A stretch of 33,867 nucleotides of DNA from Crocinitomicaceae bacterium (GTDB taxonomy: Bacteria; Bacteroidota; Bacteroidia; Flavobacteriales_D; Crocinitomicaceae), in assembly GCA_023254905.1 (NCBI GenBank), contig JALRKF010000035.1, positions 1 through 33,867 on the forward strand, in the 5' to 3' direction. Made by a program: the position numbers and the translations under genes. This document shows positions 2,896 through 30,566 of this stretch, one piece after another. Under the pieces are notes generated by a model. The model worked only from the letters and a program-made list of their open reading frames with translations. It ran no database searches and had not been told where the DNA came from. The stretch's first letter is position 1. Each line of letters opens with the position of its first letter.

Positions 2896-4377
2896 CTATT
2901 TTAGTTCAAGTTTTTCGAGTTCCTTCACGAGTAATAATCTATCAATAGGTTTTATTAAGCATGCATTCATTCCAGCTTTATTACTTTTCAGAGCCGTTCC
3001 ATCAACTACGTTTGCAGTTAAACCAATAATTGGAGTTGACTTACATAGCTTTTTCCTTATTGTTTCTGTTGCCTCAAAACCATCCATCACAGGCATCTGA
3101 AAATCCATAAAAATGACGTCATAATCTTTTTCTTTTACTGCTTCTACTGCATCAAAACCATTTTCTACTTCATCGCATGTACCTCCCCAGTTACTTAATA
3201 ATTGATTTATGAGCATCCTATTAAATGGATTATCGTCCACAATTAGGATATTTTGCTTTTCCAAATTGTAAGTATCGTTTTTATCTTTTCTAATAGTCTC
3301 CTTGTTCGCTTTACTCAACTCTACAGTAAAATGAACCCTTGTTCCTATTCCGTATTCACTTTCAATAAATAGTTTACTATTCATTTGATCTAACAGATCT
3401 TTTACTATTGTGAGTCCTAAACCGGTTCCCCCGGAATGATTCGATACTTGTTTAAAAGGTTCGAGAACATCTTTTATGTATTCTTTTTTAATTCCAATGC
3501 CAGTATCAGCAATCGAAAATTTAATGACTTGATTTTTTGTTGATTCTTCAATTAATTGAACATTAATTTCAATTTCACCCTTTTCGGTGAATTTAATGGA
3601 GTTATTTATGAGGTTAGTAAATATTTGACCAAATCTAACTTTATCTAACAACAATGTTGAGTTTATATTTTGACCAAAATTCAAATTAATTCTAGTACCC
3701 CTTTTTTCAGCATTTGGTTCCAAAGGATCAATTTTACTCTTGATCAGTTCTTGCAGGTCCGTTGCGGATGGCACGAAGCTGAACTGATCAGAGTTTATTT
3801 TGGTCAAGTCAAGAATATTATTTATTATCGATAACAAGTCTAATGACTGATCATGTATTATAGTCAATCTTGATTTATCCTCATTGGAAGTAGTAGAGTT
3901 CAACGCTAATTCTGTAAAACCAATGATAGAATTTAAAGGAGTTCTCATCTCATGACTCATCTTTGCAAGAAAGCTATCCTTGATCTTCATAGCATCCTCC
4001 AGTTCACTGATTAAATTTTTAAGTTTTACCTGATTTTGTATTTCTTGCTCATGCATACTCTCTAATTCCTCTCCAAGAATATTGATAGAGTAACCAAGCG
4101 CGCCGATATTTTCATTTTCTTCATCGATAGTCACTTTTCTTGAAAAATCAGCTTGAGCGTAACCAAATAAAATTTGTTGTAATTCATCAATTTTGTTCTG
4201 GATTTCATTGAAACTTTGGGCGCTTCTTTTGGTATTAAAAAGCGTATAAAGATCGTCGAGGATGCTCTCATTTTCATCGAAAATATCCATTAATTCAGAT
4301 TCTTCGAATGACTTGCAAGAGAGTAAAAAACGAATGACAGGAATAGCTGCTTTGATATCTTTTTTTGACGGTTTCAT
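2896..4377 (-). CDS. Soluble hybrid histidine kinase / response regulator
   Basis: This 493-residue protein has no membrane segment or signal peptide, so it should sense a cytoplasmic or partner-borne signal. An N-terminal helical region (1-130) contains a HAMP-like stretch near 70-107. The HisKA dimerisation domain has its phospho-accepting H142 in KMSHEMRTPLNSIIGF. The ATPase domain shows the N box (FTNLINNSIKF, 253-263), DTGIG (291-295) and GGTGLGL (316-322). A C-terminal receiver domain (375-493) has the acidic pair D381/D382, the phospho-acceptor D425 in FMDFQMPVMDG, and K476 in the KP motif. There is no DNA-binding output domain, so the signal probably passes to an Hpt protein or another regulator elsewhere. 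It starts 2 bases after the stop of the STAS-like gene, so the two are almost certainly co-transcribed. Confidence 0.92.
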   Translation of the reverse strand: MKPSKKDIKAAIPVIRFLLSCKSFEESELMDIFDENESILDDLYTLFNTKRSAQSFNEIQNKIDELQQILFGYAQADFSRKVTIDEENENIGALGYSINILGEELESMHEQEIQNQVKLKNLISELEDAMKIKDSFLAKMSHEMRTPLNSIIGFTELALNSTTSNEDKSRLTIIHDQSLDLLSIINNILDLTKINSDQFSFVPSATDLQELIKSKIDPLEPNAEKRGTRINLNFGQNINSTLLLDKVRFGQIFTNLINNSIKFTEKGEIEINVQLIEESTKNQVIKFSIADTGIGIKKEYIKDVLEPFKQVSNHSGGTGLGLTIVKDLLDQMNSKLFIESEYGIGTRVHFTVELSKANKETIRKDKNDTYNLEKQNILIVDDNPFNRMLINQLLSNWGGTCDEVENGFDAVEAVKEKDYDVIFMDFQMPVMDGFEATETIRKKLCKSTPIIGLTANVVDGTALKSNKAGMNACLIKPIDRLLLVKELEKLELK

Positions 4378-4379
4378 TG

Positions 4380-4808
4380 CTAAAAATCATTTTCACACCA
4401 CAAATGCGCTTCTTTGGAGTCAGTGAACATTTTGGTTGGTACATCTACCTTTCTTAAGTTGATAAAAAAGTTGGCCATTACTTTACTTATCGGCGATCTA
4501 ACAATGAACGCAAATTTCAACACCAAGTTTTGACTTTCTGAGGAACTGTAAAAGTCTCTTGTTTCCTTGTCCAAGGGACTACCTAGTCGGAGGTCACATA
4601 TCATAAAAACTTTACTAAAATCATTTGAAGACGTATAATGATTGCATCTCGATACTTGTTGGCGAGCATCATCGATAGTATGTTTACAATTGGGTTTGCA
4701 ATAGATGTATTGAATTTCATCTATGAACCAATAAAATGTCGACTTTGTTTCAAATATTTCAGCTCCAGAGGGAGGAAAGAAATCATCTGGGAATTTATCT
4801 TCTATCAT
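4380..4808 (-). CDS. STAS/SpoIIAA-like (DUF7793-type) protein
   Basis: This 142-residue cytoplasmic protein resembles the STAS/SEC14-like families common in Bacteroidota. It shows an N-terminal beta-hairpin (FYWFIDEIQYIYCKPN), a helix beginning TIDDARQQV, a core strand ending VFMICDLR, then DKETRDFYSSSESQ, and finally the block FIVRSPISKVMANFFINL followed by PTKMFTDSKEAHLW. The last block, with the FTD...EA.LWL-like ending, is the most recognisable part. Such proteins are thought to bind small hydrophobic ligands or to act as partner-switch modules. It is the first gene of an operon with the hybrid kinase, which suggests it is the input or partner of that kinase. That function is inference. 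Confidence 0.7.
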   Translation of the reverse strand: MIEDKFPDDFFPPSGAEIFETKSTFYWFIDEIQYIYCKPNCKHTIDDARQQVSRCNHYTSSNDFSKVFMICDLRLGSPLDKETRDFYSSSESQNLVLKFAFIVRSPISKVMANFFINLRKVDVPTKMFTDSKEAHLWCENDF

Positions 4809-5057: not shown

Positions 5058-5810
5058 ATGACAACCGAATTGATGTTAAAAGAAGCACTTCAGCACAGAG
5101 CTATAAATCACCCATATCTTAAAGCGCTCCAGAATGGGGAGTTTAACAATAACCTAGAAATTTATAAAGATTTTGCACAGCAATATGGGGCATATAGCAA
5201 ATGGTTTCCGCGATACTTAACAGCGGTTATATCAAAGCTAGAGAATGCAGAGCACAGAAATCATTTACTGGAGAATCTCTCCGAGGAATCGGGTCATTTG
5301 CATGATGAAGATATAGAAGCGATCAAACAAATTGGAATAGAGGAATCTTGGGTTCAAGGCATAAGTCACCCTAAGTTGTTTCAGCAATTCCAAGAATCTA
5401 TCGGTTTAACAGACACATCAAATTTTGGGATTGAAGTAGAAATTTGGAGAGAATCTTTTTTGTCTCTGATTAAAGATGGGTCGGATGCTGCAGCCATTGG
5501 CGCTATTGGACTGGGAACAGAGTCAATTGTTAAGTATGTTTATAAGTATATCATTGATGGGCTCGAAAATCACACGGATCTCACACTACAGCAATACGTA
5601 TTCTTTCCTTTGCATACGGAGGTAGATGATGAGCACGGTATTGTCCTTATGAATATTGCCCAAGAAATTGCTCAGAGAGATGAAACAAGTGAGCGAGAGC
5701 TGCGAAAAGGTATGTTGAAAGCACTTAATTTGCGCGCAGCTTTTTGGGATGATATGTACGAAAGAGCAAAGAAGCTTGATTCAAAATACGTACAATCTTT
5801 TTCAAACTAA
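5058..5810 (+). CDS. Haem-oxygenase-like iron-containing oxidase (HDO / PqqC-TenA fold)
   Basis: The preferred start is the ATG at 5058, giving 250 residues. The longer frame from the TTG at 5004 adds an implausible basic leader. The protein matches the all-helical PqqC/TenA/CADD-like group (iron-containing redox enzyme family). Features are HPYLKALQNGEF near the N-terminus, QQYGAYSKWFPRYL, then ENLSEESG and SHPKLFQQFQESIGL. Numbered from 5004, the probable metal ligands are E95 (or E94), H122 in HPxLF, E173 in GTESIV, and H204/D208/H211 in HTEVDDEHG. The HxxxDxxH spacing is the one known from CADD and SznF diiron oxidases. Known members cleave C-C bonds or hydroxylate amines with O2. The substrate is unknown here. 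The cupin gene begins 15 bases downstream. Confidence 0.8.
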   Translation: MTTELMLKEALQHRAINHPYLKALQNGEFNNNLEIYKDFAQQYGAYSKWFPRYLTAVISKLENAEHRNHLLENLSEESGHLHDEDIEAIKQIGIEESWVQGISHPKLFQQFQESIGLTDTSNFGIEVEIWRESFLSLIKDGSDAAAIGAIGLGTESIVKYVYKYIIDGLENHTDLTLQQYVFFPLHTEVDDEHGIVLMNIAQEIAQRDETSERELRKGMLKALNLRAAFWDDMYERAKKLDSKYVQSFSN

Positions 5811-5825
5811 GGGTTAATTGCGGAC

Positions 5826-6590
5826 ATGATGCATGAGTTGTTCAAAAAGGCTGTAAAGGGACGTCGTTTTAACGATAGTGAGGCAGAGTTCTTACAAAAG
5901 ATTATTTCTGACCTTCGAGATTATTTTGAAAATAATGGGTCAAATAATTTCTCAGCAATTTCTATTGCAAGCAATGTTGCGATTGGTTTAGCTTCGAGAA
6001 GCGAAAAATCAAAGGATAAAGTAGAAGATTTTATTGGTTGGCTTGAGAATCCAAAATCTAATTTTCAATTTGATGAAGACATTGACTATCTATGCAATGT
6101 CTTCTACATGGAAATAGTATCGAAAAGAACGGAATCCATAATTGAAGGTATAAATAAAGAAAAATCACTAACGCTTTCAGACAGACCAGCTGACTTTGTA
6201 GCCTCTCTTGACGAGGATGGCAAGGAAAGAATTTATGAAAATGTTATTCATGATTTGGATATAGATTTTACAGTTGATAGACTTAATTTTCCCTGTGAGG
6301 TGCTCGATCCAAGAGTAGTTAGTATAAAACCTGGTAAAGGAAATGAAATGCACAGGCATGCGCATGAAACTATTTTTGTTTTTCTCGAAGGAAATGGTAA
6401 AGTTATCGTAGATAATATTGAAAATGAAGTGAAATCAGGTTCTTTTGCTTACATTCCGCGTTGGTCAGTGCATCAAACAATAAATACTGGAGAAAAAGAT
6501 TTAAAATTTCTTGCTGTAGCCGATTTTGGATTAACTGGTAAGAGCTTTGTCGGTAATTATCATCGCACAGCGCGTCTGAAAGAAGCTTAA
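5826..6590 (+). CDS. Helical domain plus C-terminal cupin protein
   Basis: This 254-residue protein has two parts. Residues 1-150 are predicted mostly helical and I do not recognise the fold. Residues about 160-235 are a cupin barrel: PGKGNEMHRHAHETIFVFLE gives H176, H178, H180 and E181, and H216 in WSVHQTIN closes the usual metal site, 38 residues after H178. The closing GSFAYIPRWSVHQ is a standard second cupin motif. Metal-dependent oxygenation, isomerisation or ligand binding are all possible. It is very probably co-transcribed with the iron oxidase just upstream, and the same HDO-then-cupin order is known as a single chain in SznF. A second ATG at 5829 is equally usable as a start. Confidence 0.75.
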   Translation: MMHELFKKAVKGRRFNDSEAEFLQKIISDLRDYFENNGSNNFSAISIASNVAIGLASRSEKSKDKVEDFIGWLENPKSNFQFDEDIDYLCNVFYMEIVSKRTESIIEGINKEKSLTLSDRPADFVASLDEDGKERIYENVIHDLDIDFTVDRLNFPCEVLDPRVVSIKPGKGNEMHRHAHETIFVFLEGNGKVIVDNIENEVKSGSFAYIPRWSVHQTINTGEKDLKFLAVADFGLTGKSFVGNYHRTARLKEA

Positions 6591-6606
6591 AAAAAGTTTA
6601 TTTCAA

Positions 6607-7539
6607 TTAGATATTAATCCAGGTACGAACCAATGTTCGTTTCTTACTGACCTCCTCATAATCTGTATATTCTGTTCTACTATGGCAGATAAAGTTATTA
6701 TTAATGAATAATATATCTCCTCGCTTCATAAAATAGGTTAATTGATTTTCCTTGTGGTGAAAAAAATCATCGATTGCGTCCATTGCAGAAATCAAATTTT
6801 CAGAGATCTCCATGTTACATCTCTTATGTCCACTGAGTATCCAATAACGCATGTATCGGAATTTAAAAACTCCTGTTTGATCAGAGAAGATTGGGAAGCT
6901 ATTACTTTTTATTGTTTCAATATCTGTTTTGCTGCCGGGTGTTATAACATCTCGAATGATGTTTTGACAGAGTAATTCAATAAATTCTGGATGTTTTGTT
7001 TCCAGCCATTGATATAAATTAGCTGTATTCGAAATGATTGATTCCCCGCCAGTTTTGCCTGGTTGTAAGCAGAGCAGTCCAACAATATCAGGGCTATATT
7101 GAGCGGATGTACTGTCCGTATGAAACCCTGTTGATGCATTTGTCTTTGAAACTGGGACGGCCTCTTTCTTGTAGTCCAAATTTCTGTCCTTTACCTCGAA
7201 AAGTTCACCATATCTATTGTTAAGCTTGCCCAGCCCGAGCGAGATAGCATAGTAAAGTGATTTGAGTTGATCATTTGATAATTCGACATCGGAAATTTTT
7301 AAAAGTGAGAATCCTGGAGACGACTCTATGATTGGCTTGATGGTATTTGCCCACTCCATTAAGGCTTTGAAATCAGAGGACTCATTGGCATCATTAAACT
7401 GTTTGTTATCGATTTTGCCATCTTTGATAAAATTAGAACACCCGGCAGTTAACTCAACAGGAACAGAGATAGCACTTTTTTCAATTTCAGGTAAAGTTCC
7501 CCCCCAGACTAGGTCATCTAATTTTTCCGGACTTATCAT
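6607..7539 (-). CDS. TauD/TfdA-like Fe(II)/2-oxoglutarate-dependent oxygenase
   Basis: This 310-residue protein has the clavaminate synthase/TauD fold. The iron triad is clear: H140 and D142 in TGFHTDSTSAQYSPD, and the distal H286 in FICHSRTEY. The 2-oxoglutarate-binding arginine is R301 or R305 in the closing KKRTLVRTWI. The segment PDIVGLLCLQPGKTGGESIISNT is the typical strand after HxD. Such enzymes hydroxylate, desaturate or halogenate small substrates; H-x-D rather than H-x-A/G argues against a halogenase. Its ATG follows the TAA of the methyltransferase with no spacer, so translation of the two is likely coupled. It converges on the cupin gene, with 16 bases between the two stops. Confidence 0.85.
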   Translation of the reverse strand: MISPEKLDDLVWGGTLPEIEKSAISVPVELTAGCSNFIKDGKIDNKQFNDANESSDFKALMEWANTIKPIIESSPGFSLLKISDVELSNDQLKSLYYAISLGLGKLNNRYGELFEVKDRNLDYKKEAVPVSKTNASTGFHTDSTSAQYSPDIVGLLCLQPGKTGGESIISNTANLYQWLETKHPEFIELLCQNIIRDVITPGSKTDIETIKSNSFPIFSDQTGVFKFRYMRYWILSGHKRCNMEISENLISAMDAIDDFFHHKENQLTYFMKRGDILFINNNFICHSRTEYTDYEEVSKKRTLVRTWINI

Positions 7540-8304
7540 TTATACTTTTTGGATTTTGAAGGCCATGTGTAATGGTAAATCTTCAAGAGGTCCAAAGAAA
7601 TCCTCATCAAACTTAATGTGTTCTTTGGTGATGTGTAATTCGTGCACTTCAGGAAGTGTAGTAAAGTTTGCGCTTTTCAGGCAAGTGAAATAATCCTGAA
7701 CAGTTTTGTGAATACATTGAACGTTGACTGCGATGCCATCTCGACGCCAAATTTCTCCTGGGAATAACTTATTCCTCCCTGAGAAGTAACCACCCTTAAC
7801 GTCAAAGTAAAAAGGATACTTATCCTTTTTCAGATAGGCCAATAGTGGATGAGGAACTGAAAAAATAAATCGTCCACCTGGTTTAAGAAGTTCAAAAACT
7901 TTTTCCATTACCATCTGAGTTTCTTCAACATTGAGATAATTGAATAAAAACATAGCAAGGATCAGATCATATTCCTCTCGTTGCTCAACTTTGAAGTCTA
8001 AAATATTACTTGTTCGGTAAGTTGAATGTCGAATATTTTCATCTTCCTGAATGCGTATTGCATTTGAGATCATCTTATCAGAAATATCTATTCCATCAAC
8101 ATGTTTAGCCCCTCGCTTTAGCATTTGTCTTCCTACATAACCCTCTCCGCATCCGACATCGAGAATATTGAGACCTTGCAGTGGTTCACACATATCCAAT
8201 ACAAATGGACGAGCAGAAAAATCTGAAAGCAAAATCGGCTCATTGCGGCTCCAATCATCTGCTTGGTTGTTGTATAATAGTTTTGGGTCTTTTTCCGCTT
8301 TCAT
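7540..8304 (-). CDS. Class I SAM-dependent methyltransferase
   Basis: I use the ATG at 8304 (254 residues). The longer version begins at TTG 8325, inside a candidate promoter box. In the longer numbering, motif I is ILDVGCGEG (54-62), followed by an acidic D80 in GIDIS and the post-motif EYDLILAMFLFNYL. LKPGGRFIFSVPHPLLAY matches motif III of UbiE/BioC-type small-molecule methyltransferases. The C-terminal third (YFSGRNKLFPGEIWRRDGI onward) resembles the cap region of this class and should hold the acceptor. It is translationally coupled to the Fe/2OG oxygenase and lies next to the HDO/cupin pair, so a shared tailoring or biosynthetic pathway is plausible. The substrate is unknown. Confidence 0.88.
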   Translation of the reverse strand: MKAEKDPKLLYNNQADDWSRNEPILLSDFSARPFVLDMCEPLQGLNILDVGCGEGYVGRQMLKRGAKHVDGIDISDKMISNAIRIQEDENIRHSTYRTSNILDFKVEQREEYDLILAMFLFNYLNVEETQMVMEKVFELLKPGGRFIFSVPHPLLAYLKKDKYPFYFDVKGGYFSGRNKLFPGEIWRRDGIAVNVQCIHKTVQDYFTCLKSANFTTLPEVHELHITKEHIKFDEDFFGPLEDLPLHMAFKIQKV

Positions 8305-8385: not shown

Positions 8386-10425
8386 TTATTGTTTGATTAA
8401 TCTCAACAAAGTGCGCTGGTCTTTACCATCAGTTAATTCAATCCAATATATTCCTGCTGGTTGATTCAGCTTATATTTAATAAAATCAACGTTCTTGTGT
8501 TTTTTGCTTTCTAAAAGCATTCCAGAAGCATCCATAATTTTGAGCCTAACATTTTCTATTGATGAATTAAATTCAACAAAGAAAACTCCGTCTGTAGGAT
8601 TTGGATAAATGTTGAAATCAGTAGTAAAGGTATTCTCGATAATATTGGTCATCATAACTGTCAAACAAGCCGAGGTGTCAACACATCCATTTTCTGTTAG
8701 CTCCAAAGCATAAATTCCGCTGATCACAGGTAAATAAGTAGCATTAGTTGCTCCCTGAATAGGCTCGTATTCATTATCACAGTCTAACCATTGAAAAGCA
8801 TCTGCAACTGTAAAATCTGTATATAGTGTGTCTCCACTGTTATAAACGGAATTGTCAATATTAACAACTCTAATATTGTTGTATGTGAGACTATCTTCTC
8901 CATTAATTGACAAATCATAAACCACGTAACTAGTATCCGAATACAAGGCTATTTGAGTGCCATCCGGAAATAAATACTCAATACCACTGCAAACAGTGTC
9001 ATAGGTTATCATCATTGAAGTAGGGGAGTCTCTAAACCCGAGTAATTTGAGGCCAGTAGTTTCTCCGTCATAGGCCATTTGAGATAGGTAATAGGGATCA
9101 GAGGAAATGTAGTCGATGCTATCGGCTGATCTCAATATAAATACAGGATAACTGTTTAAATAAGGTTTTGTTTTGAACTGCTCTCCCAGCTGATAATTAT
9201 TTGGTGTTGCGGAAATTAATTGGTTGTTAGATTCAAATAAATAGTAAATAGAATCTACATCATACTTCATCGGGGTGTAGGCCGTATCAAGACAATTATT
9301 GATTAGATCGTAATTTACAATTGAATTCTTACAGGAGTCTACATTGGCTCCGAGCACATAGAAATATCTGAAGCTCATCGATCTACCAAATCCCAATTGT
9401 CCATTTGATGGAAAACGGATCATTTCGAAAACATGATAATCGCGGTTGTTCCAGGTCGCACTCAAGTTTCCTGCATCGCCATATCTGAAAACGTTATTAT
9501 TAGTATTCGTTGTTTTTGGATGCGCCATCGCAAGGGCAGGGGAGTTACCTGTACTATCAGATGACCAAGCGACCCATCCACCAGTATTTACCGTTTGCAC
9601 TACGGGTGTTTGGCCATAAAGACCTGTCGTTAAATTATAGTTATTTGTTGGTGTTGAGATGAAAAAGTGATCAAGGTTTGAATTACGTACTCCGCCCCAA
9701 GGCATATTTAGAAAACTAATATTGTCGTTACCGAAATTATATATCATATTATCAACTTGGATTATGCCAGCTCCTTTGTTTGTATAGGTTGTGTAGTAAA
9801 GTAAATGAGATTTATGATTAATATTCAGTAAATCCTCCGTATGTGCCTGCTGACCCCAGTTTACAGTTGTGAAAGACATATTAGTCGAATCGTAATAACT
9901 CGCAATTAAAGGAGAGTAAAACGGTTTATTTTGAGAGGGTGTTTTCAGATATACTCCGGCTTGGTGAATAAAGTAAGAGGAATCTGGTGTGTTATTTAAA
10001 GCTCCATCTACAGCGACCATTTGCCAGACTTCATCTACCCAAGGTGCATAAGAGGTGCCTCCGCCATAGCTCGGCTGAACCCAGTTAATTGGTCTCCATT
10101 GTGGAGGGACAGATTCACCAAATATCCCTCGAAAAGAATAAAGCTGCCCTCCCTTTCCTATGCGAATACTGTACGATTGGCTCGTATCTTGTGAGTTTAT
10201 GTAAGATAATTGAGCGTTAAAAACTACATTCTCAGGAAAGCTATCTACTGCCCAAATTGAAGGAGAGACGGAATATGTTTTTTTAAATTCAAATCCATTG
10301 GAATCAATGTTGCTGAGGTTACTGTTGAACCAATTGGAGCACAACAAACTATCTTTATTTTGTGCATTGGTAACAAACACAAAAAGGTTTAATGCTAAGA
10401 ATGAAATTAATGTGTGATATCTCAT
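8386..10425 (-). CDS. Secreted protein of unknown function with T9SS sorting domain
   Basis: This 679-residue protein has a cleavable signal peptide (MRYHTLISFLALNLFVFVTNAQ). The large middle region (about 40-370) is rich in aromatic residues and Asn/Thr. It has motifs such as IRIGKGGQLYSFRGIFGES and GGGTSYAPWVDEVWQMVAVD that suggest a beta-rich, possibly carbohydrate-active or carbohydrate-binding domain, though I cannot name a family. Around residues 480-590 is an Ig/PKD-like module (CDNEYEPIQGATNATYLPVISGIYALELTENGCVD would be its core). The last ~80 residues are a type A sorting domain (IYPNPTDGVFFVEF ... PAGIYWIEL ... LLRLIKQ). The gene starts 13 bases after the HTTM-like gene, so read-through from that operon is possible. 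Confidence 0.8.
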   Translation of the reverse strand: MRYHTLISFLALNLFVFVTNAQNKDSLLCSNWFNSNLSNIDSNGFEFKKTYSVSPSIWAVDSFPENVVFNAQLSYINSQDTSQSYSIRIGKGGQLYSFRGIFGESVPPQWRPINWVQPSYGGGTSYAPWVDEVWQMVAVDGALNNTPDSSYFIHQAGVYLKTPSQNKPFYSPLIASYYDSTNMSFTTVNWGQQAHTEDLLNINHKSHLLYYTTYTNKGAGIIQVDNMIYNFGNDNISFLNMPWGGVRNSNLDHFFISTPTNNYNLTTGLYGQTPVVQTVNTGGWVAWSSDSTGNSPALAMAHPKTTNTNNNVFRYGDAGNLSATWNNRDYHVFEMIRFPSNGQLGFGRSMSFRYFYVLGANVDSCKNSIVNYDLINNCLDTAYTPMKYDVDSIYYLFESNNQLISATPNNYQLGEQFKTKPYLNSYPVFILRSADSIDYISSDPYYLSQMAYDGETTGLKLLGFRDSPTSMMITYDTVCSGIEYLFPDGTQIALYSDTSYVVYDLSINGEDSLTYNNIRVVNIDNSVYNSGDTLYTDFTVADAFQWLDCDNEYEPIQGATNATYLPVISGIYALELTENGCVDTSACLTVMMTNIIENTFTTDFNIYPNPTDGVFFVEFNSSIENVRLKIMDASGMLLESKKHKNVDFIKYKLNQPAGIYWIELTDGKDQRTLLRLIKQ

Positions 10426-10438
10426 AATTTAAATATAT

Positions 10439-11287
10439 CTAATCAACTCCAGAAATTGTTTCAGTTTTCATTCTTTCTATTTGTTTCATTGGAATAAATA
10501 CTACAAATAAAATCCACAGTTGCAAAAATGAAACGTCGACAAGAATAGTAGTGATTAAATGAAAAATAACCCCAATCACGATCAAATAGTAATCAAACCG
10601 ACGTGTAAAAAATGCTAAGATGAATGATGCTTCCATGGATACTCCCAGAATCAAAGCAATATCAGCGAGTAAAGGGTAATTTGACAAATTAAACATTGCT
10701 GTCTCCAGAAAATTCATTTTATAATCATCAATCGCTAATCGATCAACATAATTATGCTCAATTAACCATCGCATTTGACCTGAATTAAAAACGGATCCTC
10801 GAAATATTTTCCAGATTGCAGCAGATGCGTAGATAAATGCAACAAAATATCTCAAACCAGTAAAAGCCAATGAAAAGGTTTTGAGCGACTTGAAACAAAA
10901 CGGAACTATCAACAAGGATAGTGTAATTATATTGTGATAATGCCAACATTGATAGGAGTTCAGCAAAACGCAATAAACCAAAAAGAATATTCCAGTAAGT
11001 AATGGTAAAACAATGCGTTTTGGAAAGAATGCAGTAAGCAGGCAGAGTGCGCTTAGCGTGATATCAAAAGTTAGTGCTACAGGATAATTTGATCTTGTTA
11101 ATTCACCAATGCCAGTTAAATGAATAATCCAATAAGTCAAATCTAAATCCAATCGCAATAAAACAGGTGATTCCAATTGACTTAACATTAAATCAGCCCA
11201 CCATTGATAGGAAATCACAAAGAACAACCAAACAAACACCAATCTAGTTAGTCGAATACGTGAAATATCGTTGTAAAAAGGGATCAT
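10439..11287 (-). CDS. HTTM-like multi-pass membrane protein
   Basis: This 282-residue integral membrane protein has about seven to eight hydrophobic helices. The segment FVAFIYASAAIWKIFRGSVF, followed by a loop and helices, resembles the HTTM (vitamin-K-dependent gamma-carboxylase-like transmembrane) family and related DoxX-like proteins. The carboxylase lumenal domain and its catalytic lysine motif are absent, so I do not assign carboxylase activity. Its ATG overlaps the TGA of the upstream single-pass protein by 4 bases (ATGA), which indicates translational coupling and suggests the two proteins act together. The role is unknown. Confidence 0.65.
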   Translation of the reverse strand: MIPFYNDISRIRLTRLVFVWLFFVISYQWWADLMLSQLESPVLLRLDLDLTYWIIHLTGIGELTRSNYPVALTFDITLSALCLLTAFFPKRIVLPLLTGIFFLVYCVLLNSYQCWHYHNIITLSLLIVPFCFKSLKTFSLAFTGLRYFVAFIYASAAIWKIFRGSVFNSGQMRWLIEHNYVDRLAIDDYKMNFLETAMFNLSNYPLLADIALILGVSMEASFILAFFTRRFDYYLIVIGVIFHLITTILVDVSFLQLWILFVVFIPMKQIERMKTETISGVD

Positions 11288-11838
11288 TTAAAATTTAGTT
11301 TTGCCACAGGTTTCTCGAGAATTTTCTCAACGGTCCTGTTATTTCGGAAAACCAAAACAGAGTTTCCAACTTCTAACTCCCGAACCTCTAGCTCAAAAAT
11401 TCTCTCAATGTAACGTTTCAACCAATTTAAAAAGACATCTCTGTCAGATACATCATTGACAAGACGTTTTTCAATTGTAGAATAGAGAGATTTAGAGCAT
11501 TTATTTTTCAAATGTTTTTTGAGAATATGTCTTGTTGATGTTTGATAAGATTTCTCTTCGAGTTGGATAAAATACATGATAGGTATTTGTATCATTTCTC
11601 GAGTTGGTCTGGAAATATTGGGTAAATCAAGATTCTCCCCATTCACCTTTACATATATTCGATCAAATTTACCAGTTGGAGATTGACGATCAGAATAATG
11701 CGCCCACAAGAAAAAAGGGGTAATCTCAATCTTTGATAACGAACACCAGATTGTCGCAAGGATGAAGAATGTAAAAAATACAAAAGCTGTTTTCGATTGT
11801 CGCCATGCCGAGCGTAGGAAGAAATTCATACGATCCAT
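11284..11838 (-). CDS. Single-pass membrane protein, partner of the HTTM-like protein
   Basis: This 184-residue protein has one transmembrane segment near the N-terminus (about 19-38, FVFFTFFILATIWCSL) followed by a mixed soluble domain rich in Lys, Arg and Glu. Topology is likely N-in with the soluble part in the periplasm. I do not recognise the family. An internal ATG (M4) is an alternative start. It is the first gene of a minus-strand operon and overlaps the HTTM-like gene by 4 bases. HTTM proteins in other bacteria are often paired with a small membrane-anchored protein, so this pairing may be functional; that is inference. Confidence 0.6.
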   Translation of the reverse strand: MDRMNFFLRSAWRQSKTAFVFFTFFILATIWCSLSKIEITPFFLWAHYSDRQSPTGKFDRIYVKVNGENLDLPNISRPTREMIQIPIMYFIQLEEKSYQTSTRHILKKHLKNKCSKSLYSTIEKRLVNDVSDRDVFLNWLKRYIERIFELEVRELEVGNSVLVFRNNRTVEKILEKPVAKLNFK

Positions 11839-11982: not shown

Positions 11983-12672
11983 ATGAAAACAATTAATTAC
12001 AGTGATGGGGAAGGACTTGAAATTATTCAAAGTTCACTTCGTCGAGGTGGGATTCTGTTGAATCTTAATAATGTTTTTGCAGTTGTTTCCACAGCAAGTG
12101 ATTTCGGAATAGAAGCGTTGAGTAAAATAAAAAAACGCAAAGAGGGGAAATCATATGGCTCCATGGTTTCCGATCCTTTTAGATTCATTCAAGAATCACA
12201 ATTGGATAGCATTGCAAAGGAGAGGTTAAGTGTTTTAGCCAATACTGGGGCATTGGAAGGTTCATTTATTCGACTTCCATGGGTCAATAATAATCAAAAG
12301 GATATTGTTATGAATGGAACACATCAAGGACTTGTATTGAGTGAACCAGTTAAAACCTTTTGTGAGCAAGTTGAATTTAGACTTGAGGATGAGTTCAAAG
12401 ATATTTTTATGCCTCGATTATTGTGTTCAAGTGCAAATATTAGTGGAGACCAAAGGGGCTCGATCACGGATAGAGAGACCGCTATTAGATTTGGAATCGA
12501 TAGAGAAATTGAATTATTTGTTGATTTTAATTTTGATAAAAAAGAAATCACAAAAGGCTCATTTCCAATTTTTTCATTTTCGGAATCTACCTATATCGTT
12601 GAGAGAGAGGGCCCTAACAAAGAAAAAATAGAGAGAAAATTAAAGGATTTTGGATTCTTAAATAGTGTTTAG
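11983..12672 (+). CDS. Divergent YrdC/Sua5-like protein lacking canonical motif I
   Basis: This 229-residue protein shares the frame of the YrdC/Sua5/TsaC family, which makes threonylcarbamoyl-AMP for the t6A modification of tRNA. Conserved parts are RRGGILLNLNN at the first strand, KIKKRKEGKSYGSMVSD in place of the KxR...KPL loop, an RLP segment after GALEGSF, and SSANISGDQRGSITDRETAI matching STSANxSG. However, the normally invariant PTDTVYGL/PTEAVFG segment is replaced by LNLNNVFAVV, and the PGPxT motif reads TGALEG. It is therefore unlikely to be the housekeeping enzyme and may use another substrate or none. The promoter region is shared with the divergent HTTM operon. Its 3' end overlaps the convergent MmgE/PrpD gene by 15 bases. 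Confidence 0.72.
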   Translation: MKTINYSDGEGLEIIQSSLRRGGILLNLNNVFAVVSTASDFGIEALSKIKKRKEGKSYGSMVSDPFRFIQESQLDSIAKERLSVLANTGALEGSFIRLPWVNNNQKDIVMNGTHQGLVLSEPVKTFCEQVEFRLEDEFKDIFMPRLLCSSANISGDQRGSITDRETAIRFGIDREIELFVDFNFDKKEITKGSFPIFSFSESTYIVEREGPNKEKIERKLKDFGFLNSV

Positions 12673-14055
12673 AATGTCAATAATAGAGTCTAGACTTTCA
12701 TATTTATGAATACTTAATAGATGCTTTTCTAAATCTTTTATATCCCTTTCATCGAGCATCGGACGGCAACAAGAAGAAAATTTTGCACTCAACTCATCTT
12801 CAGTCATCGGTGTTTTCCAATGTCCTGGCCAGCTATCACAACTAATCGGATCTTGCGATTCTGTTTGGATGATAACATACATTTCACCGAAATCACGAGG
12901 AATATCTGGGTCTAGCTTCAATTTTATCCTCTTTAGATAGTTTTGTATTTTGGGCGAACTAAGCCTTTCATCGGTAAAACTCTCAGAATTGACATAGCCA
13001 TCAATGAGTGAAACAGCGATATTATACTGGAAGCTGAATCGTGCCTCATTGGAATCTATCGGATTTGGCCTGTCACAATAATTAAATATTGGAACTGAAA
13101 CATTAATATCCCCATTTGAGTGGTTTCCCTTGTGTACTTGAAGAGCTGCTTGAATTGCAATTTGCATGGCAGTGTGCGATGGCCATTTTTTAAAGGCAAA
13201 GCCTGGATCATGAAAGCAGCTTAACTCTTCCATTCCTGTCAGTAAAACTTGGAAATTAAAATTGTCCCCCCCAAAAGCCTCTGCCCAGCCACTTCCGGTT
13301 TCAATGATGTTTTTAGATGAGGTTAACCCAAAGGAGGTTAACAAAGCTGCCTCTAATCCTCCTCGAGCGGCATTTCCACAATGTGTAGCTTTTGTCATAG
13401 TACCAATATTACCTGAAAGGCCAGATGATTTGCTTGCAGCGTAACCTATTGCCATACAACATTGCTCTTGTGTTAATCCTAATGCGATTGAAGATGCAAG
13501 AGCACTTCCAAGAGTTCCAACAGTTCCGGGAGGATGAAATCCTTTTTTTTCGAATGGGAAATGGTTTTTGTTCTCGGCGGCCTCAATGTCTGATAATTTC
13601 GCAGCAATGCGCAAGCCAGCTTCAAATTGGATGCCTGCTACAAATGCTTTAAGAAAGGTTTTACCATCAATTTTTTTTGATTGCGCAATAGCTATCAACG
13701 GAGCCAAAACAGGAGATACTGCATGTGTGGGAGGCAGAAACATAGGCTCAAAATCCATGGAGTGTATGGCACAACCATAAATAAATGCAGCATCCGGTAA
13801 ATTTGAATTCTGTTGATATCCAATAATCTTTATTCCGTTCTTTGGCTGATTTGATTCTAGATATTTGGAAAGCACCTGAACAATAGGATGGTTTATTCCA
13901 GCAAGAAGTACACCAAAACCATCACGAATTAAATCTCTAGCGATTTTCGAAATTTCATCGTTTAGGCTATCAATATTGATCCCATAAGCCAGATTAACAA
14001 TTTCACCCGTTACATTGGATCTTTTCTGTTTATAAGAGTTCTTTTCTTCTAACAT
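12658..14055 (-). CDS. MmgE/PrpD family protein
   Basis: This 465-residue protein has the two-domain MmgE/PrpD fold. Family members include 2-methylcitrate dehydratase, cis-aconitate decarboxylase and iminodisuccinate epimerase. Family segments are AAFIYGCAIHSMDFEP near residue 95, the helix PVLAPLIAIAQS, GFHPPGTVGTLGSALASSIALGLT (173-196), MTKATHCGNAARGGLEAALL (219-238), and KKWPSHTAMQIAIQAAL in the small domain. HSMDFEP takes the place of the usual HxxDxD-like active-site segment. No prpB, prpC or acnD lies nearby, so a methylcitrate cycle role is not supported by context, and substrate choice within the family cannot be read by eye. The intergenic region downstream (14056-14234) contains only a long imperfect hairpin. 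Confidence 0.85.
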   Translation of the reverse strand: MLEEKNSYKQKRSNVTGEIVNLAYGINIDSLNDEISKIARDLIRDGFGVLLAGINHPIVQVLSKYLESNQPKNGIKIIGYQQNSNLPDAAFIYGCAIHSMDFEPMFLPPTHAVSPVLAPLIAIAQSKKIDGKTFLKAFVAGIQFEAGLRIAAKLSDIEAAENKNHFPFEKKGFHPPGTVGTLGSALASSIALGLTQEQCCMAIGYAASKSSGLSGNIGTMTKATHCGNAARGGLEAALLTSFGLTSSKNIIETGSGWAEAFGGDNFNFQVLLTGMEELSCFHDPGFAFKKWPSHTAMQIAIQAALQVHKGNHSNGDINVSVPIFNYCDRPNPIDSNEARFSFQYNIAVSLIDGYVNSESFTDERLSSPKIQNYLKRIKLKLDPDIPRDFGEMYVIIQTESQDPISCDSWPGHWKTPMTEDELSAKFSSCCRPMLDERDIKDLEKHLLSIHKYESLDSIIDILNTI

Positions 14056-14163
14056 CTCAAGAAACTTTCATACACTCTACATTCTTTGTAAATAAACTAA
14101 AAAATGCCATACTTATGTCACTTTGAGAAGATAAATAGGAAGTATTTTAATAAAAAGAATCGA

Positions 14164-14222
14164 GTGTATTTTTTAAATTTCTAGATGCTAATTAGATACA
14201 ATTTTGAGATTAAAAAACACAC
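14164..14222 (-). other. Long imperfect inverted repeat downstream of the CIA30 gene
   Basis: 14164-14176 (GTGTATTTTTTAA) can pair with 14210-14222 (TTAAAAAACACAC), with one G-T type mismatch, leaving a 33-base loop. It lies just past the minus-strand stop of the CIA30 gene and may serve as a processing or termination hairpin, but the loop is long for an intrinsic terminator. Confidence 0.3.
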
Positions 14223-14234
14223 TTTCTTATCCTT

Positions 14235-14804
14235 TTATAAGTCAGAAATTAGATCAATTCTATCTAATTCTATTTCAAAGGTTTCGTCTTTCTTGTTTGC
14301 AATAAGAATAGAAAATTGCTCTATAGAGGTCTTATTAAAATTTCGCATATTCAATTTTCTTCCCCGAAAAGAGGGGTAGAATTCATTCAGTTTTAGCTTA
14401 ACGGATTGCCATTTACCGTTGGTTGAAAAAGTTTGTACATAGGAATAATAATCCGTTTTGTTGTGCTTTATTCTGAATTGATATTCCTTCCCGTCGCCTT
14501 TTAAGCGAATTTTAATTGACTTCATATCATTCACATTAACGGGCTCACTCGAGAATCTTACGGATGCGAACCCCCCATAATTTTCTGTAGAAACTTTTCC
14601 TTTGAATAATCCTGTGCCATCCGAAGTAATTGTGAATTTGGAGGTTGATATTCCACCCATAACATCGTCATTCACAATTTTCCAATCGACAGCATCAGAG
14701 CTCGAATTGAAGTCAAAAATATTTCGGGTTAATGGCTCAGAAGAATCAAAAGAGTACATAGCTATCGTTATTGCAGATAATAAGAAGATTCCGATATTTT
14801 TCAT
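14235..14804 (-). CDS. CIA30 (NDUFAF1-like) domain protein, exported
   Basis: This 189-residue protein has a signal peptide or anchor (MKNIGIFLLSAITIAMYSF) and a single CIA30 domain. The hallmark is WKIVNDDVMGGISTSKF followed by GLFKGKVSTENYGGFASVRF. Then come a galactose-binding-like beta-sandwich core (IKIRLKGDGKEYQFRIKHN) and the FEIELDRIDLI end. In mitochondria this family helps assemble complex I; bacterial members are of uncertain function and probably fold as carbohydrate-binding-like sandwiches. Its ATG overlaps the stop of the upstream NAD(P)-binding/DUF2867 gene by 4 bases (ATGA). In plants and cyanobacteria CIA30 is often fused to an NAD(P)-binding domain, so the operon pair mirrors a known fusion. 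Confidence 0.85.
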   Translation of the reverse strand: MKNIGIFLLSAITIAMYSFDSSEPLTRNIFDFNSSSDAVDWKIVNDDVMGGISTSKFTITSDGTGLFKGKVSTENYGGFASVRFSSEPVNVNDMKSIKIRLKGDGKEYQFRIKHNKTDYYSYVQTFSTNGKWQSVKLKLNEFYPSFRGRKLNMRNFNKTSIEQFSILIANKKDETFEIELDRIDLISDL

Positions 14805-16225
14805 GATTTATAGTTTGTTAATTTTTTCAGCAGACCATTAAATATGAAGCCATGAAATGGGTATACAATAAACCAATAAATTCTTCCTGCAAGCCCCTTC
14901 GGTCGAAATGTTGCAGTTTGAACCAACAGACTATTCTCAATCTTGAACTCAAGCCAGGCTTCACCTGGTAATTTCATTTCTGCAAATAGAAGTAGTCTAC
15001 CTTCCTCCCTATTTGCGTATAAAACACGCCAAAAGTCAAGCGCATCTCCTGGATTTAAGGTCTTTGGATTTGTTCTACCTCGGCGAAGGCCTACACCTCC
15101 TGCGAGCTTATCAAGGTAGCCACGGATTTTCCACAACCAATTTCCATAATACCAACCATTGTCTCCGCCTAACTTCCAAATACGATCTATTGTTAACTTT
15201 TTATTTTTAACCGGTAATTTGCGACAATCATTGAGAGTACCATATTCAGGAACAAGAATAAAGTCCCCAATGTCAAAGTCTATTCCACTGCTCACATAGG
15301 AATCTTTCCAACTCGAAACAATGTTGTTCTCCTGAATCCTGTCAAATGCTCTTTTTATGGCAGATTTATAACTTATGGGTTCCAAGTTGAGCAGCTTATT
15401 TATCCTATTGTCCCTGCATATTACCTCTATTTTCATACTATCAACAAGTGATGTAGCCAGCTTGTATGAGGTTGATGTCACAAAATAAAGCCAATAAGAA
15501 GAGAGGCGAGGAGTCATTACTGGAACGGTCCATATTTTTCGCTTTAAACCTCTAACTTCTGCAAATTGAAGAAGCATTTCCTTGTAAGAGAGTATATCTG
15601 GTGAGCCGATGTCAAAATTTTGGTTGAATACTTTTTCATTTAACAGACTTTTTGAGAGGATGGAGAGTACATCTGAAACTCCTATGGGTTGACATTTTGT
15701 TAAAAGCCATTTAGGAGTAATCATGACAGGTAATTTTTCTACCAAGTCTCTTATGATTTCGAAAGACGCACTTCCAGATCCAACTATTATTCCCGCTCTC
15801 AGGCATGTAAAGTTGTAGTCACCCTTGGTCAATTCATCTTCAACATTTTTTCTTGATTTGAGATGCTTTGACAACTTAGTGTTATTGGTCATTCCACTCA
15901 GGTAAATTACATGCTTTACTTTTGTTTTTTCCATTCTAGTTCTGAAATGAATTGCACATTTCAATTCTAATGCTTGATAGTCTGAAGAGCCAGACATACT
16001 ATGCACTAGGTAGTATGCTGCATCAATTTCGTTCGGTATCGCATCCAGAGAATCAATTTCGGTAAGGTCTATTTCTAAGACGGTAATGTTTTTGCGAACC
16101 GATGCTGGCGGATTAAAACGGTTCTTGTCTCGAACACAACAGTACAAATAGTGACCTTGTTCGATAAGTTGAATCATCAGTCGTTTTCCTATGTATCCAT
16201 TAGCTCCTGTTAACAAGACATTCAT
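14801..16225 (-). CDS. NAD(P)-binding epimerase-like protein with C-terminal DUF2867
   Basis: The ATG at 16225 is preferred because the longer frame starts with TTG at 16240; MNVLLTGANGYIGKRL then sits right at the N-terminus as in other extended/atypical short-chain dehydrogenases. The N-terminal ~270 residues are an NmrA/epimerase-like Rossmann domain: TGANGYIG for the dinucleotide, YYLVHSMSG, and HVIYLSGMTNN in place of a strict YxxxK. The C-terminal ~170 residues match DUF2867 (GDFILVPEYGTL, IWKLGGDNGWYYGNWLWKIRG, GLRRGRTNPKTLNPGDALDFWRV, LAGRIYWFIVYPFHGFIFNGL). The two-domain form is a widespread bacterial family of unknown reaction. It forms an operon with the CIA30 gene. Confidence 0.88.
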   Translation of the reverse strand: MNVLLTGANGYIGKRLMIQLIEQGHYLYCCVRDKNRFNPPASVRKNITVLEIDLTEIDSLDAIPNEIDAAYYLVHSMSGSSDYQALELKCAIHFRTRMEKTKVKHVIYLSGMTNNTKLSKHLKSRKNVEDELTKGDYNFTCLRAGIIVGSGSASFEIIRDLVEKLPVMITPKWLLTKCQPIGVSDVLSILSKSLLNEKVFNQNFDIGSPDILSYKEMLLQFAEVRGLKRKIWTVPVMTPRLSSYWLYFVTSTSYKLATSLVDSMKIEVICRDNRINKLLNLEPISYKSAIKRAFDRIQENNIVSSWKDSYVSSGIDFDIGDFILVPEYGTLNDCRKLPVKNKKLTIDRIWKLGGDNGWYYGNWLWKIRGYLDKLAGGVGLRRGRTNPKTLNPGDALDFWRVLYANREEGRLLLFAEMKLPGEAWLEFKIENSLLVQTATFRPKGLAGRIYWFIVYPFHGFIFNGLLKKLTNYKS

Positions 16226-16253
16226 ACCAGAAATATACAAATTTCTTTATTGT

Positions 16254-16281
16254 GTTTAACAATAATAATAATTAGTTAAAC
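16254..16281 (-). promoter_or_regulatory. Inverted repeat upstream of the NAD(P)-binding/DUF2867 gene
   Basis: GTTTAAC (16254-16260) and GTTAAAC (16275-16281) are perfect inverted copies separated by 14 bases of AATAAT-rich sequence, about 30 bases ahead of the ATG at 16225. It is a possible operator. The sequence is AT-rich, so chance is a real alternative. Confidence 0.25.
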
Positions 16282-16366
16282 AATAATAGTTTTTGAAATT
16301 GACGCTTTCAATGTAAATTGTTCAACTGATGAATTAATTTCCGCATCGAGATTATCTGCTTTAATG

Positions 16367-16397
16367 TTGATTTACTGGTGGATTATTGCTAAATTTT
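16367..16397 (+). promoter_or_regulatory. Candidate promoter of the secreted protease gene
   Basis: TTG at 16367-16369 and TAAATTTT at 16390-16397 are spaced by 20 bases. This is close to the Bacteroidota consensus TTG-N19/21-TAnnTTTG, with one mismatch. The implied start of transcription near 16404 leaves a leader of roughly 27 bases before the GTG start codon. Confidence 0.4.
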
Positions 16398-16431
16398 GGC
16401 AACCATTTTATAAACTATTAAACCAATACTC

Positions 16432-19400
16432 GTGAGAGCTGTTATTTCGATCCTATTTTTCCTTTTTCTATTTCAAAACTCATTCGCACAAACCGTTCAT
16501 CGTTGGTACCAAGACGGGAAGGTCATATTCCAATTGGAAGAGAATGAAAAAAAACCTGTTACTAATTCAGGACTAGTATTTATTGACGATTTCCCATTCA
16601 TAAAAAACATTGAATCTTATTTCGGTATTGATAAAATAGTACATCTGCATCCGAATATCGCGGATCGAGAACTAAGCAGAACTTATCAAATAGAATTTTC
16701 GCAGATAAACAAAGTGACCGAGCTAATCGCATATTTAGACAAGATTGATGCGATAGAATATGCAGAGGCTAAGGAATTGCATGAGTCATTTCTCACTCCA
16801 AATGATCAATATTTCGTTAATTCTTTCAATTCCGGTCAATGGGCTCTTTTTCAGATAGAAGCTCCATTAGCTTGGGATATATCTACAGGGGCCTCTGATG
16901 TGGTTGTAGCTGTCACAGATAATGCAATAAACATAAATCATCCTGATCTGGTCAATAAAATGGTCCCAGGTTGGGATGCGGTTGACAATGATAACGATCC
17001 TTCTCCTTGTGGAGGAAACAATGGATTTCATGGATCACACGTATCTGGTATTGTCGGAGCTGAGAGTAACAATAATATAGGTATTGCATCAATTGGCTAC
17101 AACGTTAGTATAATGCCTGTTAAAATAGGAGACTGTAATACGGGTTCTCTGACCAGTGGTTACGACGGTATTATTTGGGCCGCAGATAACGATGCAGATG
17201 TAATTAACATGTCTTGGGGCGGAGGAGGCTCCTCTAATTATGGCCAAAATGTATGTAATTACGCTTGGAATCTCGGTTCAATTTTAGTGGCAGCGGCTGG
17301 AAACGATGGTACTAGTCAGCAGTTTTATCCTGCGGCATACAACAATGTAATATCGGTTGCATCTACTACTTCTGGTGATTCAAAATCAAGTTTTTCTCAG
17401 TATGGCTCTTGGGTTGATATTTCTGCGCCAGGGTCGAGTATTTTGAGCACAAATGAGGGTAGTTCGTACCAGGTAACTCAAGGAACTTCAATGGCATCAC
17501 CCTTAGTTGCTGGTCTCGTCGGACTCATGATCTCTCATGCGCCCTCAGCACCACAACAGGAAGTGGTAAATTGTCTTTTAAATACAGCGGATAACATTGA
17601 TGCCTCAAATTCGAACTATATAGGACAGCTCGGTGCAGGAAGAATAAATGCCTACCAAGCATTATTGTGCATGAATCAATTTACATATGCTCTCGATGTT
17701 GGGATATCCTCTATTAACAATCCGGAAGGGTCTATTTGTTCTGCAAGTGTAGATCCTGAAATTACCTTAACAAATTTTGGAGGAAATACAGTGACAAGTG
17801 TCGATATTGAGTACCAGATAGATGCTGGCCCGATAAATGTATTAAACTGGACTGGAAGTTTGGCTCAAGGACAATCTACCAATATTACACTACCAACACA
17901 AACTCCGGGAGCAGGGGCTCACACATTTACAGCAACTGCGATAAATCCAAACGGGTCAACGGACCAGAATACCTCAAACAATTCAGAAACTTCAAATTTC
18001 TCAATAGTTATTAATGGGCAAATCGCCGATCTAACCGTTATTACCGATTGCTATGGATCGGAGATTACTTGGTCTGTTAATGAGGATGGATCGGGCAATA
18101 CTGTTGCATCTGGAGGACCATATACGAACATAACTGGAGGAGAAACAATTACAGAAAATATTTGTTTGGCTTCTGGCTGTTATGTTTTTGTAATAAATGA
18201 TTCTTATGGTGATGGACTTTACGGGTCACAATGGACTTGCACTGTAGATGGAGATTATTTTATGACCGATCAACTCGGGACAACTCTTTTTCAGATGACG
18301 GCGCCAAACGGCGATTTTGGCAGTCAAACTAGTCATAACTTTTGTATTACGTCAAACGTAGCGCTGGATGCAGGTATTAGTGATGTAAGTTTTCCTTCAG
18401 GTACGATTTGTGGTTCTTCAATTGATCCTGTTGTTCAATTAAACAACTATGGTACGTCAACGCTCACATCAGTGGATATTGTGTATGGCGTGGGAGGACC
18501 GACCCAAACTTTTTCATGGGTTGGCAGTTTAGCTCAAGGGGGAAGTGTATTAATTAATTTACCAAGTATGTCTGTTAGTAATGGAGCTTATACATTTACA
18601 GCCTTCACAAATCTACCGAATAGTGCGATTGATCTCAACACACTTAACGATCAAAGCAGTGATAATTTTAGTGTTTTTACGGGCTCTCAACCGCTCCCGT
18701 TCGACGAAGATTTCGAGTCAAATTCGTTCACAAGTAATGCCTGGACAATCACAAATCCTGATAATGGAATAACATGGGAGTTAGTTACTGTTGCGGGAAG
18801 TGCGCCTGGTGATAAAGCTGCAAAAATCGATTTTTACAATTACGGTAATGGATTTGAGCGTGATGGTATGCAAACACCTCCCTTGGATTTTTCAAATTAT
18901 TCCAGTGTAAGTATGACTTTTGATCATGCATTTCGAAGATACAATACAAGCTCAGCAGATTCTCTGGTTATTTTAGTTTCTACAGACTGTGGAAATACGT
19001 TTGACAGAATTGCAGCCTATGCTGAAGATGGAACAGGGACATTAGCCACTGCATTTACAAGCACCGTGGAGTTTATCCCTGTGACAGGTGATTGGTGCAC
19101 AGGGACAGTAGGGGCCAATTGCTTTACTCTTGATTTATCAGCTTACGATGGTTTACCTTCCGTTGTTGTTCGCTTTGAGAGCTTTAACAACGGCATCGCA
19201 GGTAACAATCTCTTTATCGATAATATTAACATTGATGGAACACAATTGAATAATCCACCTGTCGCAAATTACTCTGTTGGTTCGACGCTTTGCGTTGGCG
19301 AGAACATTACCTTCACAGATAATTCAACAGCTAGTCCTACTTCTTGGTCTTGGGATTTTGGCGATGGATCAGGGGTTAGCACATCTTCAAATCCTAGCTA

Positions 19401-26492: not shown

Positions 26493-27539
<1,047 letters not shown>

Positions 27540-28103: not shown

Positions 28104-28115
28104 AACTATAATGGT

Positions 28116-30564: not shown

Positions 30565-30566
30565 GA

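Follow-up and report, generated by a model that had tools for sequence, protein, structure and literature searches.

The HDO locus and its closest described systems

The superfamily of heme-oxygenase-like dimetal oxidases (HDOs) is marked by the dimetal ligand motif E-H-X-H-D/E-H, as given in excerpts of PMC11363339. According to excerpts of PMC13108848, a validated function is available for only about a dozen HDOs so far, their substrates are predominantly amino or fatty acids (chlorolysine for BesC and lysine for HrmI), and the surroundings of the active site can set apart HDOs whose ligands are similar. SznF consists of an HDO and a mono-iron cupin with the ligands H407, H409, and H448 (excerpts of PMC11705231 and PMC11177257), and the fluopsin C pathway uses two HDOs (FlcE and FlcD), the fumarate-adding FlcB, and the C-S-cleaving FlcC (excerpts of PMC11363339). 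In this study, we analyzed a contig of a Crocinitomicaceae bacterium (JALRKF010000035.1, assembly GCA_023254905.1), in which an HDO gene lies next to genes for a cupin protein, a methyltransferase (MT), and a TauD-type oxygenase. The whole 33.9-kb stretch (33,867 nucleotides) is hereafter called the window; it belongs to a genome of 2.27 Mb that is 83% complete.

We observed that this system is modular, with a constant HDO accompanied by the cupin (module 1) and/or the MT-TauD pair (module 2), since all genomes that carry the cupin or the MT also carry the HDO, and the set of HDO genomes is their exact union. Neither module was found without the HDO in the searched genomes, and the HDO gene was intact in all genomes but one (G108). 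We consider it somewhat likelier than even that the genes form a compact orphan biosynthetic pathway centered on the HDO, through which a small, perhaps amino-acid-derived, metabolite is oxidized and tailored; a modified amino acid would be the presumable class of product. The initial annotation had described a small tailoring pathway of four genes. The functional set proved to be real, but it is an HDO core with separable modules and not a fixed group of four.

The HDO-type oxidase (PF14518), the core member of the set, is encoded at positions 5058-5810 on the plus strand and is followed on the same strand by its partner, a 254-aa protein with a helical region and a Cupin_2 domain (5826-6590). 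Module 2 lies on the minus strand, where a class I S-adenosylmethionine (SAM) MT of 254 aa (Methyltransf_25; 7540-8304) is located directly upstream of a 310-aa TauD-type Fe(II)/2-oxoglutarate (2OG) oxygenase (PF02668; 6607-7539). All four open reading frames of the initial annotation were confirmed as intact, and its distances of 15 bases between HDO and cupin, 0 between MT and TauD, and 16 at the convergent stops also hold. Orthologue alignments favored the ATG starts at 5058 (HDO) and 8304 (MT) over longer TTG extensions. The counts of promoter-like and terminator-like motifs were the same as in shuffles, and the composition gave no sign of foreign DNA because the GC content of the cluster (0.370) was about that of the window (0.375). 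No description of this gene set was found among openly licensed papers.

Co-occurrence and gene order in relatives

Profile searches were conducted in 249 genomes, which comprised G105, a Chitinophaga-labelled metagenome-assembled genome (MAG) with all four genes, and its relatives (thresholds 1e-30 for HDO, 1e-12 for cupin, 1e-40 for MT, and 1e-25 for TauD). The HDO was detected in 14 genomes, the cupin in 8, the MT in 8, and TauD in the identical 8 genomes as the MT. Six of the HDO genomes carried the cupin only, six MT-TauD only, two both, and none neither, so that the partners together account exactly for the HDO set. Hypergeometric probabilities were 9e-12 each for the inclusion of the cupin genomes and of the MT genomes in the HDO genomes (8 in 14 of 249), and 3e-9 (cupin) and 3.5e-5 (MT) without the genomes that supplied or were reached by the profiles; all these figures overstate the significance because related genomes are not independent. 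The idea of four unrelated chance neighbors could appeal to the convergent arrangement of the pairs in the window and to the modules lying on different contigs in three of the six genomes known to have both, but it is contradicted by the exact union and by the collinear runs described below, and we give it almost no credence.

Among 99 genomes, namely the own genome and 98 relatives, strong HDO matches (E<1e-80; this leaves out weak matches in 12 of the 99, with E from 2e-6 to 6e-4), MT, and TauD were found in the same four: the own genome, G015, G021, and G064. The latter three contain a tight co-oriented HDO-MT-TauD run with no cupin. A full-length cupin relative was confined to the own genome in this set, a count that leaves out eight weak matches to the cupin domain alone. 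That the cupin is a local addition of the own genome was considered and dropped after cupins were found beside HDOs in G105 and elsewhere; the cupin adjoins the HDO in nine other genomes (G102-G106, G127, G129, G307, and G327). In a draw of 395 genomes sampled evenly across the phylum, the own genome alone was positive and the HDO was found in 0 of the 394 others (E<=1e-20), indicating that the family is rare; this agrees with the earlier statement that the set has no housekeeping counterpart. Queries of phages with the HDO gave no match, and a query of viral contigs with the cupin gave 52 pattern stretches, of which 0 were confirmed.

When the MT profile was run against 84,980 species, each represented by one genome, 13 loci were obtained, all in MAGs titled Bacteroidota, and this number is an under-count because exact short peptide matches were required. 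The MT adjoins TauD in all 13 loci. In nine of them the run includes the HDO upstream of the MT, immediately before it in eight (among them L050 of G108, whose HDO has a stop codon) and separated from it by the cupin in G105 (locus L047). Ten of these genomes were searched for the HDO and all ten had it, including those without an HDO at the MT locus; in G102, G103, G104, and G106, where the MT locus did not include it, the HDO is followed by the cupin. The cupin profile matched in 6 of 14 tested genomes. Taken over all distinct HDO genomes, 23 in number when G261 and G064 are counted once because their contig coordinates show them to be one genome, six carry both modules, six the cupin only, and eleven MT-TauD only; this tally is biased because ten genomes were reached through the MT. 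One of the eleven is G108, in which MT and TauD are open and no cupin was found. Its HDO gene (L050, about 9242-9991; G108:C11:14623-15345) has an in-frame TAA near the N terminus, which may represent decay or a sequencing error.

As for gene order, G105 contains a collinear HDO-cupin-MT-TauD run, in which HDO, cupin, and MT overlap their neighbors by 4 bases and a 3-base gap precedes TauD. The same order is found in G102 across contigs C396 and C240, which share an exact 141-base end containing the end of the cupin gene and the start of the MT gene. In the window both modules are present and convergent. In G103, G104, and G106 they lie on different contigs, with no end overlap among the compared stretches, and in G343 and G171 the cupin and the HDO are both present on separate contigs, the G171 cupin being cut by the contig end. 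G127 and G129 show the order GNAT-HDO-cupin-lipoprotein-like gene (lipoprotein as read by eye), and in G102 the MT-TauD pair lies between the cupin and a lipoprotein-like gene of this kind, whose product is 80% identical to that of G129 and 71% to that of G127. These three genomes thus present a single site with and without module 2. In the HDO tree, ten MT-only rows form one group (support 100/99), a distant Indioceanicola row stands apart, and the window HDO falls among the cupin-linked rows with a support of only 80/77. The outcome that the initial annotation named as contrary, genes scattered independently in relatives, was seen in part, as the modules are separable or lie on other contigs, but the co-occurrence holds.

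Additional genes accompany the HDO in some relatives. In G105, the gene of a PaaE-like reductase of the FAD/NAD/2Fe-2S type (291.7 bits, cut-off 420.8) begins 7 bases behind TauD, and this enzyme could plausibly supply the HDO with electrons. Downstream of the cupin, G307 and G327 carry a gene for a Tet-like MFS transporter, which overlaps the cupin gene by 4 bases in G307 and lies 24 bases from it in G327. Upstream of the HDO, G339 and G329 carry an MMPL pump gene at distances of 96 and 87 bases, respectively, and the two MMPL proteins are 88% identical; each pump type counts once because each comes from one pair of close relatives. The earlier statement that no transporter is attached thus stands for the immediate neighbors scanned with Pfam, but not for some relatives. 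A GNAT gene lies upstream of the HDO in G102, G105, G127, and G129 and beside the cupin in G171, and these five GNATs share 43-76% identity with one another. After the five-gene run of G105, locus L047 also contains a fused HpcH/HpaI (RipC-like) and MaoC protein (12999-15002) and an IS4 transposase (15433-16638).

Outside Bacteroidota, an HDO (37% identity) adjoins an MT (44%) on a 1.18-Mb plasmid of Indioceanicola profundi (NZ_CP030127.1 87265-88820; locus L107 7926-9481). The pair is preceded by a weak glycosyltransferase match and followed by ATP-grasp-like and 2OG-oxygenase-like genes (both read by eye, with no Pfam match) and by a TylF-like methyltransferase gene, and a FlgL-like gene (by eye) and a DegT aminotransferase gene are found in the vicinity. 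This setting suggests glycan decoration. On a Pantoea agglomerans plasmid (NZ_CP143422.1 34675-36675; locus L108 14905-16905), a gene named ectB encodes a fusion of an HDO domain, 28% identical to the window HDO, with a class III aminotransferase, and the next gene gives a weak GSP_synth match below the cut-off; this locus may be another small pathway.

Predicted sites of the four proteins and other window features

The HDO matched Haem_oxygenas_2 (PF14518) with 65.5 bits (cut-off 28.9), and its AlphaFold2 (AF2) model had a pLDDT of 91.8. Structure alignment with VIA placed HrmI (Z 24.4, 2.4 A, 217 residues, 16% identity), CADD (Z 24.3, 1.9 A, 209 residues), and BesC (Z 23.5, 1.9 A, 206 residues, 21% identity) as tied top matches, that is, a lysine N-oxygenase, a radical p-aminobenzoate (pABA) synthase, and a chlorolysine-fragmenting enzyme; FlcD (21.7), UndA (21.5), PolF (19.1), and RohS (18.3) followed with lower Z scores. 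E76, E77, H104, E155, H186, D190, and H193 are kept in 22 of 22 alignment rows, and the predicted metal ligands are E77 (or E76), H104, E155, H186, D190, and H193. H104 was taken as a ligand because it is invariant and aligned with the CADD stretch that begins at a ligand His, and H80 and H82 were dropped because both vary among relatives. Thus, the fold, the PF14518 score, and, by the predicted ligands, the E-H-X-H-D/E-H motif agree with membership in the HDO superfamily. Compared with CADD, there is an insertion of ~20 residues between the first two ligands, and the helix inserted there in the model (residues 83-91) bears acidic residues at 84 and 85 in all 22 rows.

The likeness to CADD raises the possibility that the HDO is a CADD-type pABA synthase for folate with unrelated neighbors. 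All 22 HDO rows matched TIGR04305 (the CADD family), CADD ranks first among the PDB matches in sequence, and in G307 a PabC-like gene follows the cupin at a distance of 1.7 kb. However, the window HDO reached only 66.6 bits with TIGR04305 (cut-off 200), and its consistent partners are not folate genes. In addition, Tyr27 of CADD is replaced by Leu/Ile21 and Lys152 by Ile/Leu165 in 22 of 22 rows. With both sacrificial residues missing, this assignment was rejected and is extremely improbable. The HDO also failed the NCBIfam equivalog for BesC (27.4 bits against a cut-off of 500).

The cupin protein matched Cupin_2 at residues 164-231 (58.1 bits, cut-off 27.2), and the ~160 residues ahead of the domain had no Pfam match. 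In a low-confidence AF2 model (pLDDT 61.5, built from 2 of the 12 alignment rows), this N-terminal region is mostly helical up to about residue 137; the model is too poor for the metal site or for the fold of the helical region. H176, H178, H180, E181, and H216 are kept in 12 of 12 rows, H176, H178, and H216 being the predicted metal ligands, and the helical region is much less conserved than these residues.

SznE N-methylates in the streptozotocin pathway, and the presence of an HDO, a cupin, and an MT invites a comparison with that pathway. In such a scheme, for which we see a small chance, the window would hold the logic of SznF in split form: the HDO would N-hydroxylate an amino-acid nitrogen, the three-His cupin would rearrange the product to an N-N or N-O compound, and the MT would N-methylate it. 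The precedent is the union of an HDO and a mono-iron cupin in one protein, as described in excerpts of PMC11705231. In all 12 rows, the window cupin and its relatives combine an HxH motif with a third His that lies 38 residues downstream, a correspondence of motif spacing and not of structure, and HxH...H is common to many cupins. The N-oxygenase HrmI ranks first by Z for the HDO, though tied with CADD and BesC, and the acidic residues at 84 and 85 could, judging from the model, supply a seventh ligand, such as the additional carboxylate (3H/4C) that SznF bears on its auxiliary helix. On the other side, the HDO and the cupin are encoded by two genes, both in the window and in the cupin-bearing relatives that were read, the MT resembles ToxA, and an HDO-MT-TauD form exists without the cupin. 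SznF was absent from the nine PDB matches of the HDO profile (E<=10) and from the best 60 of 73 PDB matches of the cupin profile; its absence from the 50 VIA matches listed for the HDO and the 50 Foldseek matches listed for the cupin excludes nothing. N-oxidation followed by a cupin rearrangement is, by this analogy, a serious possibility. About as tentatively, such an N-oxidizing, N-N-forming pair of HDO and helical cupin may be exchanged for or combined with the MT-Fe/2OG branch on the same HDO product, so that one intermediate would have two fates and lead to a reactive or metal-binding metabolite of uncultured Bacteroidota.

The MT matched Methyltransf_25 with 68 bits (cut-off 27), and its nearest solved relative was ToxA (8rdl, E 2.2e-21), which N-methylates azapteridines, with only the SAM domain aligned. 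The sole PADLOC match among the four proteins was that of the MT to mad2 (84.9 bits, residues 20-155); it was read as fold similarity, and anti-phage defense was rejected. In the oxygenase, TauD (PF02668; 94.4 bits, cut-off 27) was the sole domain found. The Fe/2OG facial triad H140, D142, and H286 and the distal R301/R305 are kept in 17 of 17 rows, in agreement with a TauD-type oxygenase, and the predicted metal ligands are conserved in the HDO, the cupin, and TauD alike.

The nearest solved relatives of TauD were FrbJ (5eqn, E 1.9e-15), then 7n7v and gamma-butyrobetaine (GBB) hydroxylase (GBBH), and the best NCBIfam matches were the dioxygenases of GBB (56.7 bits) and trimethyllysine (TML; 52.5 bits). 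A carnitine- or betaine-type metabolism could account for these matches, and of the aromatic cage residues Tyr177, Trp181, and Tyr194 of GBBH, the first two align with the likewise aromatic Y110 (17/17) and F114 (16/17). However, the scores are far under the cut-offs of 414.75 and 268.3, the Tyr194 position is Lys132 in 16 of 17 rows, and no aldolase or aldehyde dehydrogenase domain was present in the 10 scanned window proteins. The scores and this one cage position led us to reject such a metabolism as improbable; the rejection is not absolute because the two other cage positions are aromatic.

A fluopsin C pathway was also rejected, since it requires a second HDO besides the enzymes that add fumarate and cleave C-S, and the window contains a single HDO. 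Pfam found this single HDO among the 10 scanned window proteins, and the HDO query of the own genome gave one match (E<=0.001), although a distant HDO could be missed in a genome that is 83% complete. No fluopsin-type lyases were detected with Pfam in the same 10 proteins; the genome was not searched for lyases.

Other features of the window were as follows. The product encoded at 4-447 has a strongly acidic, methionine-rich C-terminal tail of DMD/MED/DMY repeats. A hybrid histidine kinase gene lies beside the gene of a DUF7793 protein on the same strand, 2 bases apart (2896-4808). Two minus-strand genes (282 and 184 aa) with a 4-base overlap at 10439-11838 encode proteins with no Pfam or NCBIfam match (E<=0.01). 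At 12658-14055, an MmgE/PrpD-family protein matched both Pfam domains and fell far under the 2-methylcitrate dehydratase cut-offs. By eye, the minus-strand run at 26493-32006 (glyceraldehyde-3-phosphate dehydrogenase, KDPG aldolase, 6-phosphogluconate dehydratase, 6-phosphogluconolactonase, and glucose-6-phosphate dehydrogenase) reads as an Entner-Doudoroff set.

Proposed pathway and comparison with known systems

In the biosynthetic pathway that we favor, the dimetal HDO would use O2 to oxidize a small molecule, for which an amino acid or a related amine or acid is the likeliest candidate. By analogy with characterized HDOs, the reaction may be C-C cleavage, desaturation, or N-oxygenation and would deliver a reactive intermediate. 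This would be the first, committing O2-dependent step, because either module may be missing but never the HDO. The HDO product would then be processed by the metallo-cupin, or by methylation and Fe/2OG oxidation, and where the four genes coexist, as in the window, both modules may act on it. The finished molecule may be exported, since an MFS or MMPL pump lies beside HDO genes in two relative lineages.

Several points weigh against this pathway. The placing of the HDO first follows the simplest logic of presence and absence, not biochemistry, and absence was judged in draft MAGs at set cut-offs (cupin 1e-12 or 1e-8, MT 1e-40, TauD 1e-25). None of the reductase, pumps, and GNAT is universal across the set, and the case for export is weak because the pumps are not conserved and were seen in two pairs of closely related genomes. 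No adenylation, ligase, or carrier domain was found with Pfam in the 10 scanned window proteins. A catabolic role would fit much of the same evidence. The genes might serve the catabolism or detoxification of an environmental metabolite, and we assign this a minor but real chance, somewhat above that of the SznF-like scheme. Catabolism is the best-known role of the TauD family, the closest plasmid relative of TauD (32%) lies within a catabolic-looking Acinetobacter operon, and in G105 a fused lyase/hydratase resembling RipC/RipB comes next after the five-gene run. However, there was no uptake system among 18 scanned neighbor proteins in relatives, the pumps seen are exporter types, and a methyltransferase would be unusual in degradation.

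With a constant HDO, modules that occur singly or combined, and one site with and without module 2, the relatives constitute a natural experiment, and the order of reactions is therefore testable with two to four small proteins. Such work could yield a new O2-dependent transformation or a natural product from Bacteroidota, whose mini-pathways may be easily overlooked because they lack non-ribosomal peptide synthetases and polyketide synthases.

Compared with known systems, the HDO shares its fold with BesC and HrmI (Z 23.5 and 24.4), whereas the identities are low (21% and 16%) and the gene context is another one. CADD and NePabS, the closest PDB relatives by sequence, have the same fold and ligand set, but the window HDO lacks the sacrificial residues and carries the insertion between the first two ligands. 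The oxygenase has the TauD domain and the facial triad of FrbJ and the GBB/TML dioxygenases, but one cage position is Lys and the scores are low. Like FlcA-E of fluopsin C, the locus is a small set that joins HDO chemistry to SAM-dependent methylation; unlike it, the window has one HDO, a TauD oxygenase, and a cupin. Finally, SznF and SznE resemble the locus in pairing an HDO with a metal-binding His-triad cupin and in having a methyltransferase in the pathway, whereas in the locus the HDO and the cupin are distinct proteins, the latter with a helical region of its own, a TauD oxygenase is added, and no sequence similarity was detected.

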